DNA from: Lanius collurio
Lineage: Eukaryota; Chordata; Aves; Passeriformes; Laniidae
Assembly (NCBI GenBank): GCA_020086605.1
Contig: JACBWW010000003.1
Coordinates: 57,142,849-57,206,848 of the forward strand
Direction: 5' to 3'
DNA: 64,000 nt
Below, one piece after another: positions 640-39,900 of the stretch. The position numbers and the translations under genes were made by a program. Within the stretch, counting starts at the first letter, position 1. The number at the start of each line of letters is the position of its first letter. The notes under the pieces were generated by a model that worked only from the letters and a program-made list of their open reading frames with translations, searched no databases and was not told the origin of the DNA.

Positions 640-1345
640 GGCACACAACATGTCCCATCTCTCTTCATCACCCACCATGTATAACCAGGTCCCTGAGCAA
701 AGACAACTCCATGGATGGTTTGTCTATTCTCAAGGCAGAGTTAATCCAAACAGTCTTTCCTAACAGACCTCTGACATGCACTGCTGGGGCCTTATCTCCA
801 TCTACTGTATGCAGGGGCTCAGACTGGGCCACCTCCATTGGTGGAGCCTCGGGTGTTAACTAACCAGGTAGCCTTTCCTAAATGCTGCTCCCAATTTTTT
901 AAAGTTTCCCCACCCAGTACCTTCAAGGTGGTTTTCAACAATCCATTGCACCATTCCACTTTTCCAGCAGCTGGTGCAGGGTAAGGGATATGGTACGCCC
1001 ACTCAATGCCATGCTCCCTAGCCCAGGTGTTGATAAGGCTGTTTTGAAGTGAGTCCCACTGTCAGACTCAGGTCTCTCAGGGGTACCATGCCTCCAAAGG
1101 ACTTGCTTTTCCAGACCTAGGATGGTGTTCCGGGCTGTGGCATGAGGCACAGGGTAGGTCTCCAGCCACCCAGTGGTGGCTTCTACCATGGTGAGCACAT
1201 AACGCTTGCCTTGGCGGGTCTGAGGCAGTGTGATGTAATCAATCTGCCAGGCCTCCCCGTACTTGTATTTGGACCATCGTCCACCATATCACAGGGGCTT
1301 CACCCGCTTGGCCTGTTTGATGGCAGCACATGTCTCACAATCATG
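640..1345 (-). pseudogene. ERV integrase remnant
   Basis: Minus-strand pieces in several frames cover integrase. Around 1300-1345 the sequence reads HDCETCAAIKQAK, the CxxC half of the N-terminal zinc-binding HHCC domain. The longest frame (935-1198) has VEATTGWLETYPVPHATA and a core motif, ESDSGTHF, with the second catalytic Asp; Ser replaces the usual Asn. The last catalytic Glu region is shifted out of frame near LLEKWNG. Fragments such as WLVNTRGS (about 870) and AQGPGYTWWVM (about 660) show that the C-terminal part runs to about 640. The protein would have inserted viral DNA into the host genome. It is disrupted by several frameshifts and stops. Confidence 0.85.
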
Positions 1346-1691
1346 GATCACCTGGGAGATGCTATCCATGGTTAGATCCACCGCTCGGTCTCGTGCCCAC
1401 TTATAGGTGGCATCTCTGATGGTCAGAGGCGTCATGGGCTCATCAAGCTAGGAACAACTCTCCCTTGTGTTTCCAATCTAAGTCTATCTGTTACACCTCT
1501 ATTTTCACAACCTGATCTACCTGCTTGTTGTTTCGATGTTCCTCATTAACCCTACTCTTGGGGACATGAGCATCTACATGGCAGACTTTCACAGGTAGCT
1601 TTCCTACCTGGGCAGCAATGTCTTTCCACTCTTCAGCAGCCCAGATTGGTTTTCCCCTATGCTGTCAATTCGCCTTTTCCCACCTTTCCAG

Positions 1692-1889
1692 CTATCCCCA
1701 TAGAGCATTGGCTACCGTCCATGAATCAGTGTAGAGGTAGAGATTTGGCCACTTCTCTCTTTCAGCAATGGCCAGGGCCAGCTGAATGACTTTGAGTTCA
1801 GTGAGTTGGCTTGATCCACCTTCTCCTTCAGTAGCTTCTGCAGCCTGCTCTGTGGGGCTCTGTACAGCTGCTTTCCACTTTTGTTTCAT
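1692..1889 (-). pseudogene. ERV RNase H remnant
   Basis: A 65-codon frame shows the middle of a retroviral RNase H domain. LTELKVIQLALAIAEREKW supplies the helix with the catalytic Glu, and LYLYTDSWTVANALWG contains the TDS catalytic Asp. The frame ends in TAG directly after ALWG. The first catalytic Asp of the domain should lie upstream (above 1889), but I could not find a clean frame there. It sits in order between RT (2565-3370) and integrase (640-1345), which supports one ancestral pol gene. Confidence 0.85.
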
Positions 1890-2564
1890 CCTTCAATGCC
1901 ACAGGAACCGTCAGTGAAGGGAGCATAGCGTGTCTTCTGATGGCAATTGGTTGTATGGTGGAGCTTCTTCAGCACATGTCACTTGTTCTTGCTCTTCTTT
2001 GTCAGTGAGACCAGTTTTCACCTTCGGGCCAATTTGTGACTATTTCCAAGATCTCAGGGTGATTAAGTTTTCTGATACAGGCGCGCTGTGTGATGAGAGC
2101 AATCCACTTGTTCCATGTGGCATTGGTGGTGTGGTGGGTAGAGGGAACCTTTGCTTTGAACATCGACCCCAGCACCAGTAGTCAGGGTGCCAGGAGGAGC
2201 TGTGCTTCAGTGCTGATTAACTCTGAGCTGGCTGCCAAGATTTCCTCCTCTGTTGGGGTGTAGTTGGCTTCAGACCCTCTGTAGCTTTGACTTCAAAATC
2301 CCAGTGATCAACCTCAAGTCTCACCAGGCACTTTCTGCCAAAGGCTCCAGGACAGACTATGGCTTCTGGCTGCAGAGTAGAGCATGTTCACTTCTGGTCC
2401 TGTCCTGACTGGACCAAGGGCTAGCGCATGAGCGATCTCCTGCTTGATCTCAGCAACGGTTTGTTGCTGTTCAGGGCCCCAGTGGAAATTTTTCTTTTTG
2501 CAGGTAACCAGGTAACCAGATAGAGAGGGCTCACAATCTGGCTGTACTTAGGAATATGCATCCT

Positions 2565-3370
2565 CTAAAAGCCTATGGCACTTAAGATAGCTTGTGTTTC
2601 CTTCTTGTTGGTTGGTGGAGACATTGCTGTGATCTTATTGACGATCTCAGTAGGAATCTGATGCCGTCCATCTTGCCACTTCACTCCCAGGAGCTGGATC
2701 TCCCTTGAGTGTGTTCTTCTTGATGGCAAAACTGGCTTCCAGGAGAATCTGGATGATTTTCTCTTCTTTCTCAAACACTTTTGCTGCAGTGCTGCCCCAC
2801 ACAGTGATGTTCATCAATGTACGGCAGATCTTCTGGAGCCTCACCCTTTTCCAGTGCAGCTTGGATCAGTCCATGGCAGATGGTGGGACTGTGCTTCCAC
2901 CCCTGGGGCAGTCGGTTCCAGGTGTACTGCACGCCCCTCCAGGTGAAGGCAAACTGAGGCCTGCACTCTGGTGCCAAAGGAATGGAGAAGAATGCATTTG
3001 CAATGTCAATGGTGGCATACCACTTTGCTGCTTTGGACTCCAGCTCGTACTGGAGCTCCAGCATGTCCAGCACAGCAGTGTTCAGTGGTGGAGTCACTTC
3101 ATTCAATGCACGATAGTCCACGGTCAGTCTCCATTCCCCGTCAGACTTGTGCACAGGCCAGATGGGGCTGTTGAAGGGTGAATGGGTCTTGCTGACCACC
3201 CCTTGGCTCTCCAGCTCATGGATCATCTTGTGGATGGGGATCACAGCATCTCGAGTTGTCCAGTACTGTCGGTGATGCACTATCGAGGTGGCAATTGGCA
3301 CTCTTTGTTCTTCTACCTTCAGAAGGCCTACTGCAGATGGGTTCTCTGATAGTGTGGGCAAGGTGTTCAA
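2565..3370 (-). pseudogene. ERV reverse transcriptase remnant, frameshifted at the active site
   Basis: The first frame (2771-3370) has clear RT signatures: a primer-grip-side stretch with PIWPVHKSDGEWRLTVDYRALN, shown here only as an identifying motif in parts (PVHKSDGEWRLTVDYRALN), then YATIDIANAFFSIPL with the first catalytic Asp, and LPQGWKHSPTICH. At the YxDD motif it reads YIDEHHC: one extra base after GATGA (near 2815) moves the second catalytic Asp out of frame. Matching RT sequence resumes in another frame (ITVWG, then AKVFEKEEKI), and the thumb/connection part lies at 2565-2774 (LLGVKWQDGR, PPTNKKETQA). The enzyme would have copied viral RNA into DNA. This copy is non-functional. 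Confidence 0.92.
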
Positions 3371-3700
3371 TTACTTTATGCCCTCTGCCTCCACAGCAGC
3401 TATTTCAAAAGCCCACTTGAGTCCCTTTGGGTCTCTGAAATACCCGCCTTGGAGGAAGTCTATGCCCAAAATGCACAGGGCCTCTGGGCCAGTCACAATG
3501 AGATGTTTCTTCCATTCATTTCCAGTCAGGCTCACCTCAGCTTCCACCAGGGTCAAATCTTGTGATCCACCTGTTATACCAGCAATAGAAACAGAATCTG
3601 CCCCCACATGTTGCAATGGGATTACTGTGCACTGTGCACCAGCATCAACCAAGACATCGTATTTTTGTGGTTCTGATGTGCCAGGCCAACAAATCCACAC
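3371..3700 (-). pseudogene. ERV aspartic protease remnant
   Basis: This 109-codon frame carries a retropepsin-like core. The active-site region reads VLVDAGAQCTVIP, so Ala stands where the D-T/S-G triad has Thr or Ser. A second conserved patch, CILGIDFL, matches the usual I-L-G-x-D/N motif near the C-terminus of retroviral proteases. In an intact virus the enzyme would cleave Gag-Pol as a homodimer. The frame ends in TAA at 3371-3373 and continues in the same frame straight into the RT segment, so protease and RT were one reading frame now split by a nonsense codon. The altered triad and the stop mark it as dead. Confidence 0.85.
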
Positions 3701-3781
3701 AGTCTAAAAGACATGGTTTTCCCTGGCCTCACCTGGCTAGAGGCAGGGCCCCTCTAGTTCTGGTTATCATTCCCTCCCTGC

Positions 3782-32186: not shown

Positions 32187-34460
32187 TCTGAATCCATGGA
32201 GAATAGTTTCTTAAGAATCCTAATAGAGGTATCTACCACAATGTCAGGATAAAGGCCTGGAGTGGGAGGCATGTTCTTACAGTCCCTTTGAAAGCAGCCT
32301 GATGTGCTCTGCATGGGGAGAGGCTGTAAGAGCCGGTGCTCCAAAGTCCTTCTCTTTCTTCCTTCCTTGTCCAGATAAATAGATATTCCCTATCTATGAG
32401 AACAAACGGGCTTGTTCAACAAGAAGGTGCAACTGTGCTGTGATACTTTCCAGAACAACAGACAACATTTAGCATGTAGCTGCTACCTTGAAAATGTTTT
32501 AAACTGAGCAAAATGGGAAATGAAAAAATAAGGGTTTGCACACCTTCAATTGCTCTTTTAGAAGAAAAACAAAAAGACTATGACAAAAAGGAAATTTGAG
32601 AAATGCAAATAAATTGGAGTGGAGAGCATTACCCCCAGACAGAAAATTTTAACTGTTGATTCTTGATGTGGAGATAGAAGGCACTGCTTATGCTGCATGG
32701 TATAATAAAAGGAGAACAAGAGAACCTGGAATAATAGAGATGGACTGGAATGCAACAGTATAAATGCAAGGTCCCACAGCTGGGAATAAACACTACTAAT
32801 ATTTGTCACAACTAGAGGCTAAGGAAAGAGACAAAAAATATTTTGTGTACACGGTCGACAGAGAACTATAGGCAACCAATATGTTACAACTGTGAAAAAG
32901 GATAATGCATTCCTAAACTATTATGGGATGTGATATTTCAAGGGAAAAAATGAAGACTGATTAAAGCCACTATACCAAAACACAAGAATATGGGTGCAAT
33001 GCCAGCCACACATTTTCAAAGCAAATGAAAATGGGAATGGACAGGAAAACAGATACTTTTTTTGCTCATTCCAATAAAAGAGATGGTCAGAAATACTACT
33101 TTTTTTCCTTATAACTGTAGGTCTAAACTATGGAGTGAAAAAAGACATTTAAGCTGAAGGACTTTGTTGACTCAAGAGGAAATCACGAATGCACCAGCCA
33201 TGAATGTAGTCAGCTTGGAAATGGAAAGGAAAAAAATCTATCTATCAGAGAAATTAATGTCTAGAAATTTCCATAGGAAAAACCCCAAAGCATAAGCATA
33301 TTGTGGAACTTGATAAATTTACTAAAAACATTTTTATGGCATATTTGCCTCCAACACAATGGGAACAGACTTAGTGAGACAGGAGGTGACTTACCAAACT
33401 ATGTCTGAAACAAAATCCATCCTTTGCAGAAGAAGCAAAATTCAAAATATAAATATTCTCGAGTCTACAGTTTGAATATTTACAAGAGTTTTAAATAGTT
33501 TTAAAATTCTAAAATTTCATCCATGGCTCATAACTTGTATATCACACATCTGTTTAGCTCTTAGGTTTTTATACGTAGTTTAAAGACACATTTTTTCCTT
33601 TTGTGGGATTAGTTCCTTTTTGTTTGGGGGATCTTCCAAACACCAGATTAAAAGCATCTGCATCAAACCCATCTGAGACATCACTGCCAGCATTTAATCA
33701 TTCCTTTGCCATAGAACAGGGTTTTGTCAGATTCCCTTTCCTCAGCTTGACAGCATTTTTACATCTGGGACTACAAACCAAGAAAAGCTTAGGGAAAATA
33801 TAACAAGAAATAATAATACTCATTCTGGCTGAAGGAAAGTGCCAGAACTTGCTGCAGAAAATGACTGGTTTGGTTCTCATGTTGGCTTTTCCTGCCCAAT
33901 TTAGAAGGACAACCCTTAGAAATATTTGCTATGAGAAATATTTCCATAGAAATAAGGCTACAAGTTAAGGGAGTAGGAAAGAGAGGCAACTGTTCTGCAG
34001 GGCACAAGTCAGATTTTCTCTTCAATCAGTATGCATTAATAAGTTGGAAGTAAATTGGTGAAACTGTGCTAGCCAGGATGCACACAGCTCAGGGGCTCAC
34101 CCATGTGTGAGGCTTGCCCTGATCCTGTGTTGATCCAGTGCTACCTAAGGTTGTTTCAGTGGAATTAAAGTCAAGGTGAGCACACATTCACAGGAAGATG
34201 GAAAAATTCACATTTGGATTGGACCCCTCCAGCTCAACTTCACTTGCTGTATTTTTAAACCCAGATCTTCTCAGAAGACCTAACCTGCAGCTCCTGATGC
34301 ATATGGTCATACTCAAGGATGGGAGACAGAGATGTTATGTATCTTGCTTTGCTCCAAAGCGTACCAACATGAACACCAGTACTCCTGAGAGCTGATTTCT
34401 GAGGCATCTGCACGTTGTGGCTGGGTCTCATTGCTGACCATGACACAAGCTGTGTGTTGC
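32187..34460. other. Non-coding, no gene recognised
   Basis: AT-rich sequence with no supported gene or recognised repeat. It forms the left flank of the 2.5-kb LTR element. Confidence 0.5.
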
Positions 34461-34743
34461 TGTAATGGGGAATCCTAACAACAAGTGTAAGACAGCCATG
34501 AACTTAGAAGGAAAGATGAAGTGATATTTTTGTAGATATTCAGAGATGATTTATTCCTCCAGCTGCATGGCTGGAGTTCCCAGGCAGCTCCCAGTCATGG
34601 GACCCTGTTCTCTTCCTGGGCCCGGGCACCCCAAACCAACCAACCAGGAACAGGTGTGGGGCACACGGGACATGGGGACAGGGACAGACCCGTACCCTGC
34701 AGGGTCCCTCCTGCCAGGATTTCAGGGGAGAGGCACCTCCACA
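34461..34743 (-). repeat. 3' LTR of the Y-box element
   Basis: This LTR is about 91% identical to 36676-36960 (about 24 differences counted by eye, plus a small indel). The minus-strand polyadenylation signal is at 34550-34555. The palindromic GGGCCCGGGC-type and CCAACCAACC motifs occur in both copies. Confidence 0.9.
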
Positions 34744-34762
34744 ATTCACTCTTTCTTTTTAA
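34744..34762 (-). promoter_or_regulatory. Probable polypurine tract
   Basis: The minus strand reads AAAAAGAAAGAGTGAAT immediately before the 3' LTR, where a retroviral plus-strand primer should be. A second, longer purine run lies at 34957-34978 just after the tail stop codon and is an alternative. Confidence 0.55.
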
Positions 34763-34976
34763 ATAAAGAACATTGGAAACTGTTGGATAAACAACAAAAC
34801 AATTTCAGAAGAAAGGAAGCCACTATCTTGAGTCCCCAAATGTCCAAACAGATTTTCTTTGGAGCATCAGAAGGAAGACAGGACTTGAGCACGCTTCAGA
34901 TGGAAACTGAGTCAGGAGAGGGTTTTTCCTTTCTGTACCCATTGGAATGACACTTAATTTCTTCCCTCCCTCCTTT

Positions 34977-35627
34977 TCATCCCCCCATCGACATTGCAAA
35001 GGGGTTCATGGCAAATGGAAAAGCCTGGTTTTGTGAGGGGAACCAGAAAGGGAAATTTAGGCTGGGCATATATGGGGGATAAAGGCGCATGGGATAAAAG
35101 GGGAAGGTGGGATAGGGGAAAGGATAGAGATTATGGGGATATTGTCTCGCATATCAACTACCTTTGACAGGAACACCTCCAGAGCCTGTAACACATGGGT
35201 CCTGTGGGCCCTGTCCTCCTTGTAAAATTTTAAATTCTACTCTTTCTCCTTCTAAGCTTGGAACATCACTTTTGGGGTTATTTTTCACAAAATCAGATTT
35301 ATGAACAAAACTACTTTCTCCTGTATCATTTTGCAATAAGAAACCGTAATTTTTCTTTACATTATACCATTTTACAGTTCCAAAAACCTTAGGTGCAATA
35401 ATCTTTTCTTTCTTCCACGTTACTTTTATTCTTGCTTTCCCTTTCGTTTCTTCTTGCTCTTGCGCTGGAGCTGCCGCAGTGGGGACCGCCAGGGCCGGGG
35501 CCACCAGCTCGTTCCTGTCACAGGGTTCCGACCACTTGGGATCGCGTTTGGGGCCACGTGGGTCCGGTCTGGCTGTGCTGCTGCACGCCGCCACTGCTGG
35601 CTGCTCCGCCTTCAGCCCCCTCTGCAC
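34977..35627 (-). pseudogene. Y-box-like cold-shock domain frame with Tyr/Pro-rich tail
   Basis: The frame gives 157 residues to a TGA at 35154-35156, then 58 more sense codons in the same frame to a TGA at 34977-34979. Residues about 41-75 are Ala/Pro-rich then charged, like the N-terminus of Y-box proteins. Residues 78-157 are a cold-shock domain: KVFGTVKWYNV, then the RNP1-like KKNYGFLLQN, the RNP2-like SFVHKS, KNNP, EGERVEF and VTGSGGVPVKGS. In YBX proteins a basic residue follows the final GS; here TGA sits at that place, which fits a CGA-to-TGA change. The tail is rich in Tyr, Pro, Phe and Met with almost no charge, unlike the basic/acidic YBX C-terminus. The frame opens at GTG, with a TGA seven codons upstream and no in-frame ATG. 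Y-box proteins bind single-stranded RNA and DNA. This copy is probably dead, but its ancestor was likely coding. Confidence 0.8.
35157..35396 (-). other. Cold-shock domain (YBX type)
   Basis: About 80 residues align along the full length of the Y-box cold-shock fold, with roughly half identical to vertebrate YBX proteins by eye. The conserved Trp of the first strand, the Y-G-F of RNP1 and the F-V-H of RNP2 are present, so the nucleic-acid-binding face is largely kept. Lin28-type cold-shock domains fit less well, because the end VTGxGGVPVxGS is the YBX form. Confidence 0.88.
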
Positions 35628-36240
35628 CGCCGTTTGGCCCTGTGCTCACTTCTCCTCTGGAGCTCCGCGCAGCTGTTCCGTGCTTTCCAGGCTTTAGCGT
35701 GGCTGCACGGCTGTGCCCTGTGAGGCGTTCGCATGTACACGGCATTGCACCGCTGGCACTGCTGCCGCTGCTGCTCTCAGCTGTGTCGCTGTCGGCTGTG
35801 TCGCTGCTGGGTGCTAGCGTGGTTCCCTTCTCGCTCCTACGCTGCTCGGGCTCTGCTCAGTGTGGCTCACCGCGGTCGCCATAGCAACTGCCACAATCGC
35901 CACTGCCTTCCTCGGTGCAAAGCTTGGGCCCAGATCGTCGCTTGCTATGCAGCACGGGGCGGCCATCACCAGGATGCTCCTCTGCCACCGCCACCCTTGC
36001 CACTGCACCAGGGCAAACACCGCCAGGCCTGCACTGCCGCGCCGCTCCTGGCTCCCCTCCCGCTGCCAACATTCTCAACACCAGCTCTGCTCCCACCATG
36101 CCTGGCCTCACTGGCTCTCCCACAAGTGGGAGCTCCCTCGCCACCACCCGCAATGCACTGGGCGCCCGCAGCCGGGGCCGCGCAGTCTCCGGGCAATGGA
36201 GGAGCCCACTGCAACGCTTGCGCTGCTTGACCACGTGCTC
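35440..36240. other. GC- and CpG-rich internal segment of the LTR element
   Basis: This 0.8-kb block is strikingly GC-rich compared with its surroundings and has many CpGs. It contains short tandem units such as ctgtgtcgctg repeated near 35770-35800. On the minus strand it lies between the Gag-like frame and the cold-shock frame. Open frames exist on both strands (for example 35857-36264 minus and 35733-36230 plus), but they are low-complexity Ala/Gly/Pro/Arg strings expected from composition. It may be the 5' UTR and first-exon sequence of the captured host gene, or a Gly/Pro-rich Gag spacer. I cannot decide between these. Confidence 0.6.
35518..35745 (-). pseudogene. ATG-started frame overlapping the Y-box N-terminus
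   Basis: A 75-codon frame starts at a true ATG and overlaps the 5' end of the cold-shock frame in another register. It contains Gly/Ala/Ser-rich sequence (GGAEGAEGGAASSGG) that would suit a Y-box N-terminus. It could be the original start of the captured gene, now separated from the cold-shock domain by a frameshift. Low-complexity composition makes this uncertain. Confidence 0.3.
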
Positions 36241-36292
36241 ACTGCTAAAACAGCAGCGAGACACAACTGATATTGCTCAACAGTCTCTGAAA

Positions 36293-36564
36293 TCAGAGAT
36301 ATTCACGGAAATAGTCTTGCATCGGCACATTTTTTAATTCAGAAATTAACTGTGTCCAAACATTTTCCCAGAAGTCTTTGGTAAGAATCAAATCCCAAGA
36401 AACATAAAAGAAGTTTTTAAACAGCCATGCCAAAAAGTGTCTTAGTTCTTTCTGAGCTTGAATTAAGCTAAAATCTACATATTGCTGTTAAGAACCTTTT
36501 TGAGTTTAAAGTAAATGTCTCTTTGTGGTTCAGACAGCCATGAGACTTTCCATGAGTCCTCCAT
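36293..36564 (-). pseudogene. Gag matrix-like frame, frameshifted
   Basis: An ATG at 36562-36564 opens 29 codons ending in TAG (36475-36477), with SEPQRDIYFKLKKVL. A second register is then open for 63 codons (36293-36484) with QKELRHFLAWLFKNF, then DFWENVWTQLISELK. Together they are the size of a retroviral matrix domain, predicted largely helical, with the HFLxWLF and FWExVW aromatic pattern seen in Gag matrix proteins of several genera. The location, about 110 bp inside the 5' LTR, is where gag begins. I see no capsid or zinc-knuckle motif after it. The matrix assignment rests on pattern and position, not on an alignment. Confidence 0.6.
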
Positions 36565-36652
36565 CGTTCAGAGATGGGGCAGCAAAACGAAAGCAACGAG
36601 ATATCCAGAGTTTACTCACAAATCACCAAATTACCTTCTCCAGGGATCATTT

Positions 36653-36670
36653 GCCTGCATTTCTCCACCA
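36653..36670 (-). promoter_or_regulatory. Candidate primer-binding site
   Basis: Five bases inside the 5' LTR end the minus strand reads TGGTGGAGAAATGCAGGC. Retroviral primer sites begin with TGG, complementary to the tRNA CCA end. I could not match it to a particular tRNA. Confidence 0.35.
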
Positions 36671-36675
36671 TTTGT

Positions 36676-36960
36676 TGTAATGGGGAATCCTTACAACAAG
36701 TTTAAGACAGCAATGAACTTGGAAGGAAAGATGAAGCGATATTTTTGTAGATATTCAGAGATGATTTATTCCTCCAGCCGCATGGCTGGAGTTCCCTGGC
36801 AGACTGTCCAGTCACGGGACCCTCCTCTCTTCCTGGGCCCGGGCACACCAAACCAACCAACCAGGAACAGGTATGGGGCACACGTGACATAGAGATAGGG
36901 ACAGACCCCTACCCTGCAGGGTCCCTCCCCCCGGGACTTCAGGGGAGAGGCACCTCCACA
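36676..36960 (-). repeat. 5' LTR of the Y-box element
   Basis: Partner of 34461-34743 in the same orientation. The minus-strand AATAAA is at 36765-36770, followed by about 85 bp of U5-like sequence to the TTACA end. No clear TATA box is seen in the GC-rich U3. Confidence 0.9.
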
Positions 36961-39900
36961 GTGGGTGGAGCTTTCCCATGTCTGAGGTGTCTACAGAAGC
37001 CCTCTCCAGAGTGAATTCTCTACATCTCCCACAGATAAGTGCATGAACAGGATATGTTTTTTTAATCTAACCAACAATTTGCAGTACACTTAGAAGAACC
37101 TAGTAATGTTTACAGTTTTCAACTATGACCAGAGTCAGCAAACAGGTCCAAACATATCAGCATAAGACATGCATTTAAGCAGTGCATTGTAGTATATCCT
37201 TCTTTTTCTTTGAAAACAAGGCTAGGAAGCATGTTCTAAAACCTAGAAAATAAGTTAAAGTACACAAGAGTATTTTCTTTTCTTTTCAAGACTTGGGATA
37301 CAAAGAGCTTTCCCTTCAACTTTGTGGACTTCTCAGCTCTCTCATGGACACAGGATTAATAACTGCACTTACAAAAGCAGCAAGGTTTGGATTCATCCCC
37401 TCTCATGCAGGCTGAAGAGTTGGTCTATACTTAGTGGAGACATAAAAAGTCAGAATTGCCTCCCCATGACATGCTGGTGGCAGAGAAACCCCAGAATTAT
37501 TTTGTTCCTCATAACTTCAAGGGCGGACTCTGGCTGGAGAACTGTGTTCATCCCACCACAGCATTTCCACTGACACAAATTGTTCTGGAATTGCTGCAAA
37601 AGCCTCTGAGAAAAAACTTAATGTGGGCCCCATGGCTGCAGCAGAGAACCCTGGATATCTGAAATATAGGAGGATGGTGAAAACGTTTGTGTTTCAGGAA
37701 CTCTAAACAAGGGTGGCAACTGCATCATTTGTGCTGATGGTAACAGTTTGCCTCCTTTACAGCCATTGCATAAGGAAAATATCTACTACCCACTTTGCAG
37801 TGATTTGCCATTTTTACTGTGCCAAAGCGAGGTTTTATAAGTGTCTCTGTCTTTGCACATTAAATCCAGGGTGTGTAAGACAAAAAGAATGTGGGACTGG
37901 TGAAAAAAAATACACACAGGATTTCTTAAGGAAATTTTTCTTTGTGTGGCAGAGAAAAGAGAACCAAAAGGTATTTCATCTGTAAAAGGACAGAATTTGA
38001 GAAGCAAATTTTAGGCAGAAAAGTCTAATGTTTTTTTTTCTACTTCCTTTGGCCTCAGGAAATGGAGAATCACTTTAAAGATTAATTGTGAGAGAACCCT
38101 TGAATTTCTTTTCCCATTTCAATTAAAATGGGTAGTCACTCATAGATATGTGAAATAAAAGCAATACTTTTGAGCAGCATTCAGTCAGAGAAATCAAGGG
38201 TTGGCTCAAAGAGGAAGGTTAATCAGTAGAGTGTTAGCACAGAATTTACAAAACCTATTACAGAACAGGGAGTTGAATACAAGCCTCCTATATGACCTTA
38301 GGTTACATTACCTCTCTCTACCTTGCCTTTGCTTTTCACACATACTTGAGGTGTTCCCACAGTCCAGTAAAAGCAAGCATTGGTCAGCAGGGATTAAACA
38401 AAGCAAACTTCAAAACCAAGTGCAAAACCAGCTTGGTCGAGATGAGGAATAATAAAGAAATATAAGTGCATTATTACAATTTTCAGGTCCTGCTATAAAT
38501 ACTGTGCACCAGTCTTTGAATGAGTACCTTGCCTAGCTCATTGAAAACATTTGTGGGGCCGGGCATCATCTAAGAGGATAAGGTAGATGAGGTCCTCTTC
38601 AGTGAGGAAAATTTCGTGGGGAAAATGAAGCCAAGGGTATAAAGTCAGAAGAAAAAAATCCAAGGTGTCTTGCCAGATTGCAACTCTGTCAGGTTTGAAG
38701 CTGAACTAGTGCATATGCAAAGACCTGTGCAGCTCTGCACCATCAAAGCCTACTTAATCAAATTTGCCACCTTTGCATTTCACAAATACTTTAATCCAAC
38801 AGATGTCATACTTGATTGCATGTGCCTGTAGCCTTCTCTAGGTAGAAATCTGTGACTTGGTTCCAGTTAAGCTATCTATCATTTTCCTTCCTCACATTGG
38901 TGTTACCTAGATGTTAGCTACAAAATCCCCTTCCTGGCACAATTCTGTGTGTTTTAGTCCTATGTTCCAGTATGAATGACATGTTTGATATGTAAGTCAT
39001 AAAATAACTATCCCTCCAGAAAAAATATCATTATCTGCACTGCACAAAGTGCATGTCAAATTGCTCTTAAGTTTCAGTCATTTAAGGCTTTTAATTTCTG
39101 AAGGCAATTGTAAAAATGAAAGCTTTGCTCCCATCTCAAGCTTTGATAATCACATGGTTAAAAATGCAACAAACACCATCAACAAACATAGCTCCAACTG
39201 ATCATGATTTCCACCTTCATCCAGTGACTGAACAGGTTTCTTCATTTCCACAGGACACAAGAATGGAAATTCTTTGAAAATGTTATAAATAGCTTTTCTA
39301 CTTAACCTGTCCTAATCTTGCTTTATTTTAGTAATCTATTGTTTATTCCTCTTTGCACTGGCAAATCAGGGGACCAAAATATATGTAACTATTTACATTA
39401 TTTTAAAATAGCTCAGATAAAAAAGCTTCTCCTCCCTTAATATACATTTAATAAATCCATTTTTCCATCAACAGCTTCTGCTTTGACCTCTGTTTGAGAC
39501 ACCACCCTGTCTCTGATGTAATACACTGCATTCACATGTTCATTTCCAGCCCAACTCAGGCAATGGCAGTGAATGCGTTAGGAAGACAGACAGGTGGGTC
39601 CCTTAATTTGAGCTCATTTTCTGATTTCTTGCTATCAGTATTCCATAATCCTTCTTCATTTCCTGCTTTTGCTACCCATTGCTAATCATAGCTAATTTCA
39701 GGGCCTGACCATAAAACCTCATCTGTCCAGATAGATTCCTGCACCTCTGTGGAGTCTGAAACCTCTGCTTGGCTCCCTTCTGGTGTGAAGAGTTTTTTAC
39801 AGCCATGCAAAAACCAGATTAGGGCTGATGAGGATGAACTCCACAAGGTATTCTGTTCAACAGTAAAACCTCAGGCATGTTCACTAATACTCTGAAACAG

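Follow-up and report, generated by a model that had tools for sequence, protein, structure and literature searches.

Within the window, the whole stretch of 64,000 nucleotides from Lanius collurio that was analysed, an element with two long terminal repeats (LTRs) occupies positions 34458-36960 on the minus strand and encloses a Y-box-type cold-shock domain (CSD). The element belongs to a large, dispersed family in which the CSD shows signs of selection and, in the one copy examined at its front, continues a frame that probably represents the front of gag. From 5' to 3' along the element, a primer-binding-site-like stretch is followed by a matrix-like frame starting with ATG, a GC-rich linker, the CSD, an aromatic tail and a purine tract. 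The features of the window copy are as follows.

34452-34457, no strand: target-site duplication, left copy GTGTGT, judged by comparison with 6-bp duplications elsewhere in the family
34458-34743, minus: 3' LTR, from repeat comparison and edges taken from other copies
34744-34760, minus: purine-rich, polypurine-tract-like stretch beside the 3' LTR, similar in 11 other copies for which the junction was printed
34977-35153, minus: Phe/Pro/Tyr-rich tail frame, a stop-free continuation of the CSD frame in several other copies, here lying after a TGA
35154-35156, minus: premature TGA of the window copy
35157-35444, minus: Y-box-type cold-shock domain (Pfam match 35202-35381)
35445-36250, minus: GC-rich linker, limits approximate; Ala/Arg/Pro/Ser-rich in open copies
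36251-36564, minus: Gag-matrix-like N-terminal frame, frame-shifted (ATG 36562-36564, open piece 36293-36487, far limit approximate)
36653-36670, minus: candidate primer-binding-site-like stretch with a TGG start, 2 nt inside the 5' LTR
36673-36960, minus: 5' LTR, from repeat comparison and edges taken from other copies
36961-36966, no strand: target-site duplication, right copy GTGGGT, read against other copies

An earlier note on this DNA had described TG...CA direct repeats around a YBX-type CSD, with neither pol nor env between them. The repeats are real, with 91% and 94% identity over two blocks and a Kimura two-parameter (K2P) distance of 0.093 across 286 sites, while the left edge, placed by that note at 34461, proved to be off by 3 bp and was set further out, at 34458, by comparison with other copies (LTR termini ...TTACAACA). 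Here and in other two-LTR copies, the LTRs start with TG, end with CA, and are flanked by a target-site duplication, which in the window is 6 bp long with one mismatch (GTGTGT against GTGGGT, 5/6 bases equal). The purine tract and the stretch starting with TGG recur beside the LTRs across copies, the latter without a tRNA match. The CSD described by the note is recognised as Pfam PF00313 (E 8e-13, 48.5 bits, cut-off 27), and among solved structures it scores best, and similarly, with YBX1 (E 6.5e-23) and YBX2 (3.7e-22). The reported lack of pol and env also held, as none was seen when Pfam was run on five minus-strand interior frames and only the CSD rose above the cut-off. The window copy itself is broken: its matrix frame is shifted, a TGA stands directly after the CSD, and the CSD-bearing frame comprises 163 codons without a Met ahead of the CSD.

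Copies across the genome

Genome searches covered the species' own assembly (1.097 Gb). The LTR search returned 3261 first-look candidates, 40 of which were scored, all 40 matching and the window's two LTRs among them. A DNA search with the CSD region gave 1050 first-look candidates (40 scored, all matching, one of them the window), and a protein search with the CSD of YB-1 gave 1288 (150 scored, all matching). Among 30 loci cut from the LTR search, 14 carried an LTR alone within 1.5 kb. Longer regions were fetched around 14 remaining loci, and 12 of these contained two LTRs together with CSD DNA; L035 showed one LTR match and a CSD, and L044 two LTRs with the CSD absent. The CSD search supplied 29 more loci (L046-L074). 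In 26 of them, LTR matches likewise flanked the CSD on both sides, including L052, where one side holds only a 49-bp LTR piece; L056, L066 and L068 are without a flanking pair. These 29 loci were found by their CSD, and independent evidence that LTR copies carry the domain comes from the LTR-search set only. The copies occupy separate locations, and no match was seen between the ends of any two of the 14 fetched regions. Copies of the kind that the earlier note had named as support, in which both LTRs enclose the CSD at a constant position, are thus numerous, and since dozens of other genomic sites show this layout, it is more than chance.

The same recurrence decides against the alternative that the earlier note had set beside its own proposal, namely that a poly-A cDNA of a YBX gene was inserted as a single retrocopy into an ordinary endogenous retrovirus (ERV) at the window locus. 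The CSD is intronless and Y-box-like, as this would have it, but dozens of sites carry it at one and the same position between LTRs, the 14 fetched regions have unrelated ends, and in one copy (C71) it lies in phase with the Gag front. A lone retrocopy was therefore rejected, many LTR-flanked copies carrying the CSD at the same place, and is scarcely credible at this locus.

The 6-bp target duplication is exact in 9 of 13 two-LTR copies, in which the flanks were read by eye (5/6 in L043; the flanks of L033, L034 and L044 were unreadable), and in 6 of 13 solo LTRs complete at both ends, in which it was read by script (the incomplete L025 being excluded). Duplications of this length are associated with class II (beta/alpha-like) ERVs, and by this mark the element family is one of class II. 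A helper with the same LTRs was not found in the assembly. Within 13 other copies, the two LTRs are separated by a K2P distance of 0.06-0.14, which, at a bird substitution rate of about 2e-9 per site and year, would correspond to an age of the order of 15-35 million years. The phylogenetic tree of the CSD region from 40 copies has a star-like shape; its median end branch is 0.056, and support is weak for 31 of 37 inner branches.

The cold-shock domain and its Gag-like front

In each of the 150 scored copies, the CSD forms one intronless match that covers 74-85 of 85 residues, with 56-74% identity to the CSD of YB-1. This spread suggests subfamilies at unequal distances from the parent gene. 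Some copies are 70-74% identical to YB-1, and copies of the window's kind (e.g. C17:18799014) are near 58%, suggesting that the CSD has been diverging within the element for a long time, in several subfamilies. At the RNA-contact positions, assigned after YB-1, the expected residues are conserved (W in 41/42 copies, F in 42/42, F in 39/42, H in 39/42); against a whole-domain mean of 90%, they do not stand out strongly. The CSDs of YBX1, YBX2 and YBX3 carry the same RNA-contact residues.

In several other copies, the CSD frame runs on past the position of the window's TGA, and several have a VPVKGSRYA-like domain end, which resembles YBX2 and not YBX1; this gives a hint, and only a hint, that YBX2 may be the parent. 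YBX2 is germline-specific. Beyond the domain, the resemblance to the Y-box family ends: YB-1 has a C-terminus of basic/acidic repeats, according to PMC6040738, whereas the open tails of the element are short and Phe/Pro/Tyr-rich, no basic/acidic repeat domain was found in them, and the Gag-like N-terminal front is a feature of the element that YBX proteins lack. The predicted protein, although it contains a Y-box CSD, is accordingly not classed as a Y-box protein. In several copies (among them L034, L037, L042 and L043), a second frame is also open just before the CSD and closes soon within the domain, and an out-of-frame ATG sits just before the CSD in several, including the same four.

The CSD is preceded by leaders of three classes. 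Class A is the full leader of the window; in class B, about 520 bp around the linker are missing and about 260 bp of different sequence stand in their place; class C has a different leader, whose match at the DNA level is confined to the matrix core. The A and C leader proteins, each beginning with ATG, are 33-37% identical, and 22 positions are invariant across 11 open copies of the two. On the tree of the CSD region, leader class changes 13 times, against a minimum of 2 and a shuffled mean of 18.4, a count as low being reached in 1 of 200 shuffles, so that the classes are intermingled, though not at random. One well-supported pair links an A copy with a C copy, on a tree whose bootstrap had not settled. 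We infer some exchange of leaders among copies by recombination, which is expected of co-packaged retroviral RNAs.

The leader frame was related to gag through L085, a region with an ATG frame 1.1 kb ahead of a Gag_p24 match. Both leader classes resemble the front of this frame (32-33% identity; 37.4 and 38.5 bits), and the starts agree within 5 residues. For the two matrix queries, the control maxima were 21.2 bits (20 base shuffles per region) and 20.8 bits (14 solo-LTR loci). The first frame of the element is therefore probably the front of gag, judged by this one match and by its position. The L085 provirus is itself broken, because its p24 match lies, by coordinates, in another frame. In all, 150 Gag_p24 matches were scored in the same genome; the genome holds at least 150, many within long open frames, and potential helpers may accordingly have been plentiful. 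Short proteins from small ENA contigs also match the matrix-like front: P0001 at 75%, P0002 at 34%, and P0003 at 50% over 57% of the query.

Additionally, the CSD lies inside open frames of 499-509 codons in 9 of the 150 scored copies, uniform in length and on nine different contigs, so that long open frames, which the earlier note had looked for among the copies, do occur. Among these nine, the front of the frame was examined in C71, whose CSD is within a 507-codon open frame. The 421 bases fetched from its front contain a class A matrix (92% identity), and from the matrix ATG to the CSD there are 1062 nt, a whole number of codons (354), which puts the two in phase. An in-frame stop stands just upstream of this ATG, the 122 codons seen are stop-free, and the lengths add up (354 + 85 + about 68 tail codons = 507). 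C71 thus carries a probable gag front, so assigned through the L085 match, in frame with a host-type coding sequence, in agreement with the proposed capture next to the start of gag.

Selection on the domain

Codon variants were compared in 53 of 54 copies, the window included, one copy falling under the length floor; the neutral expectation was taken from 42 copies, with L035 and L044 dropped. The copies were mostly picked for their likeness to the window and form a non-random sample, and the Fisher's test used ignores shared descent. CSD variants private to one copy comprise 31 synonymous changes, 121 amino-acid changes and 9 stops, while variants found in at least 9 copies comprise 15, 7 and 0 (p 6.2e-6). 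With the tail added, the private counts are 63/206/12 and the shared counts (at least 9 copies) 17/10/0 (p 2.3e-5); the tail alone has four such shared variants, too few for judgement. A 3' non-coding stretch yields a neutral expectation of 3.08 changes to each synonymous one, and the observed values in the same 42 copies are 3.13 for private variants and 0.53 for those in at least 9 copies. Third positions hold 15 of the 23 variants shared by at least 9 copies, compared with 1 of 4 when the non-coding stretch is given an arbitrary reading frame. In the class C matrix (18 copies), private variants (29/75/4) likewise differ from those in at least 5 copies (6/2/0, p 0.009).

Private variants of the CSD therefore look neutral and widely shared ones do not. 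These are signs that selection preserved the domain as the family spread, and a selection signal was among the findings that the earlier note had named as support. That the CSD was captured once and travelled as a useless passenger, on LTRs that spread for other reasons, is improbable: most of the copies examined are broken and their private variants look neutral, as a passenger's would, but the variants in at least 9 copies are mostly synonymous (15:7 against 31:130 among private ones, p 6e-6), and 9 of the 150 scored copies keep the CSD within frames of about 505 codons. Purifying selection alone does not say who benefits, and the signal could in principle come from a domesticated, host-owned gene that was copied repeatedly. 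This is more improbable still, as the variants that carry the signal are common to LTR-flanked copies and each of the nine long open frames has a contig of its own.

Possible roles of the fused protein

The family is probably best understood as a helper-dependent class II element that encodes a truncated Gag-CSD fusion, the CSD serving the element's RNA and perhaps replacing the nucleocapsid. Gag would have been cut short after its matrix region and joined, through the GC-rich linker, to a captured Y-box CSD and a short aromatic tail, giving one protein of about 505 residues. Dependence on a helper is suggested because no pol was seen, and capsid, reverse transcriptase and integrase would be supplied by other class II elements. 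The fused protein would enter helper particles by its Gag front, its CSD would bind and stabilise the element's RNA and bring it into these particles, and the domain would thereby do part of the missing nucleocapsid's work. PMC6040738 reports that YB-1 supports HIV (human immunodeficiency virus) replication and cites studies according to which it makes HIV RNA more stable and, in an RNA-dependent manner, regulates the production of murine leukaemia virus (MLV) vectors and mouse mammary tumour virus (MMTV). A CSD acting on retroviral RNA could therefore be useful in principle. A bolder version, in which a germline Y-box domain took the place of everything behind the Gag matrix and the matrix-CSD protein is a substitute nucleocapsid that uses this domain to pick its own RNA and load it into the particles of other ERVs, is put forward tentatively and is rather doubtful; if it were true, a 2.5-kb element could outbreed its helpers.

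Several observations weigh against the helper-dependent fusion. Matrix and CSD are in phase in 17 of 41 mostly broken copies, with 11 and 13 in the other phases, and a second count gave 16, 10 and 15 in phases 0, 1 and 2; phase 0 does not clearly exceed chance and by itself lends no support, and the scatter fits frequent indels in the linker. The class A matrix (22 copies) gives a non-significant contrast (32/90/9 private against 5/9/0 shared, p 0.35), and when 56 linker codons are added to the class C matrix, the contrast has p 0.047 (41/120/4 against 9/6/3), with three shared stops. Eight further regions upstream of p24 showed no matrix match (1 of 9 matched overall), the leader protein has no Pfam or PDB profile match, and its low-confidence fold model (mean predicted local distance difference test, pLDDT, 60; six helices) found no convincing structural match. 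No helper with the same LTRs came to light, and that RNA binding would lead on to packaging is a proposal.

The same fusion might instead act in the germ cell and not in the particle, sitting on host or element mRNA and raising expression of the element. There, as a Y-box protein would, it might tune translation or shield RNA from silencing. The retained RNA-contact residues speak for this, as does the possibility that the parent is the germline-specific YBX2, suggested by the VPVKGSRYA-like end of several copies; YB-1 is, moreover, a major component of messenger ribonucleoprotein (mRNP), as PMC6040738 states. The fusion to a matrix-like Gag front suggests assembly, and such a cellular role is rather unlikely.

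Capture of host sequence by retroviruses has several precedents. In acute transforming retroviruses, a captured cellular coding sequence follows the front of gag in the same frame; these viruses have lost pol and env and need a helper. The present fusion of a probable gag front to captured sequence is alike in layout, but those viruses are recent infectious agents with growth-control genes, whereas this is an old germline family of about a thousand first-look candidates, with an RNA-binding domain that bears a selection signal. The maize element Bs1 carries part of a host ATPase gene and is likewise a non-autonomous LTR element with a transduced host segment, though in a plant and from a different host gene. 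Captured host genes in ERVs are described as uncommon in PMC4299795, which names Src, cyclin homologues, KIT-ligand and nectin3, thought to act on the host cell. In the crocodilian ERVs reported there, KIT-ligand lies between pol and env in CrocERV29 and nectin3 replaces env in CrocERV31; as is proposed for the shrike family, a host mRNA sits inside a multi-copy endogenous retrovirus, and the authors report purifying selection. The crocodilian captures are a cytokine and a cell-surface protein, whereas the shrike family joins an RNA-binding domain to a truncated, Gag-like N-terminus, in elements that showed no pol and are without the viral enzymes. No description of a Y-box or cold-shock capture was found in the literature searched. 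Host-gene capture by ERVs is itself known, and the crocodilian captures are the nearest described case in that literature.

Selection on the captured domain during the spread of the family can be read from its copies. This opens to testing the idea that a cellular RNA chaperone took over genome selection from the nucleocapsid, and the family would be a natural record of such a swap, including gag leaders exchanged between copies whose CSDs are alike.

Elsewhere in the window, pol pieces of another ERV lie on the minus strand at 938-3703. Named by eye from their translations, they comprise a protease-like piece (3374-3703), a reverse transcriptase-like piece (2774-3370) and an integrase-like piece (938-1288).
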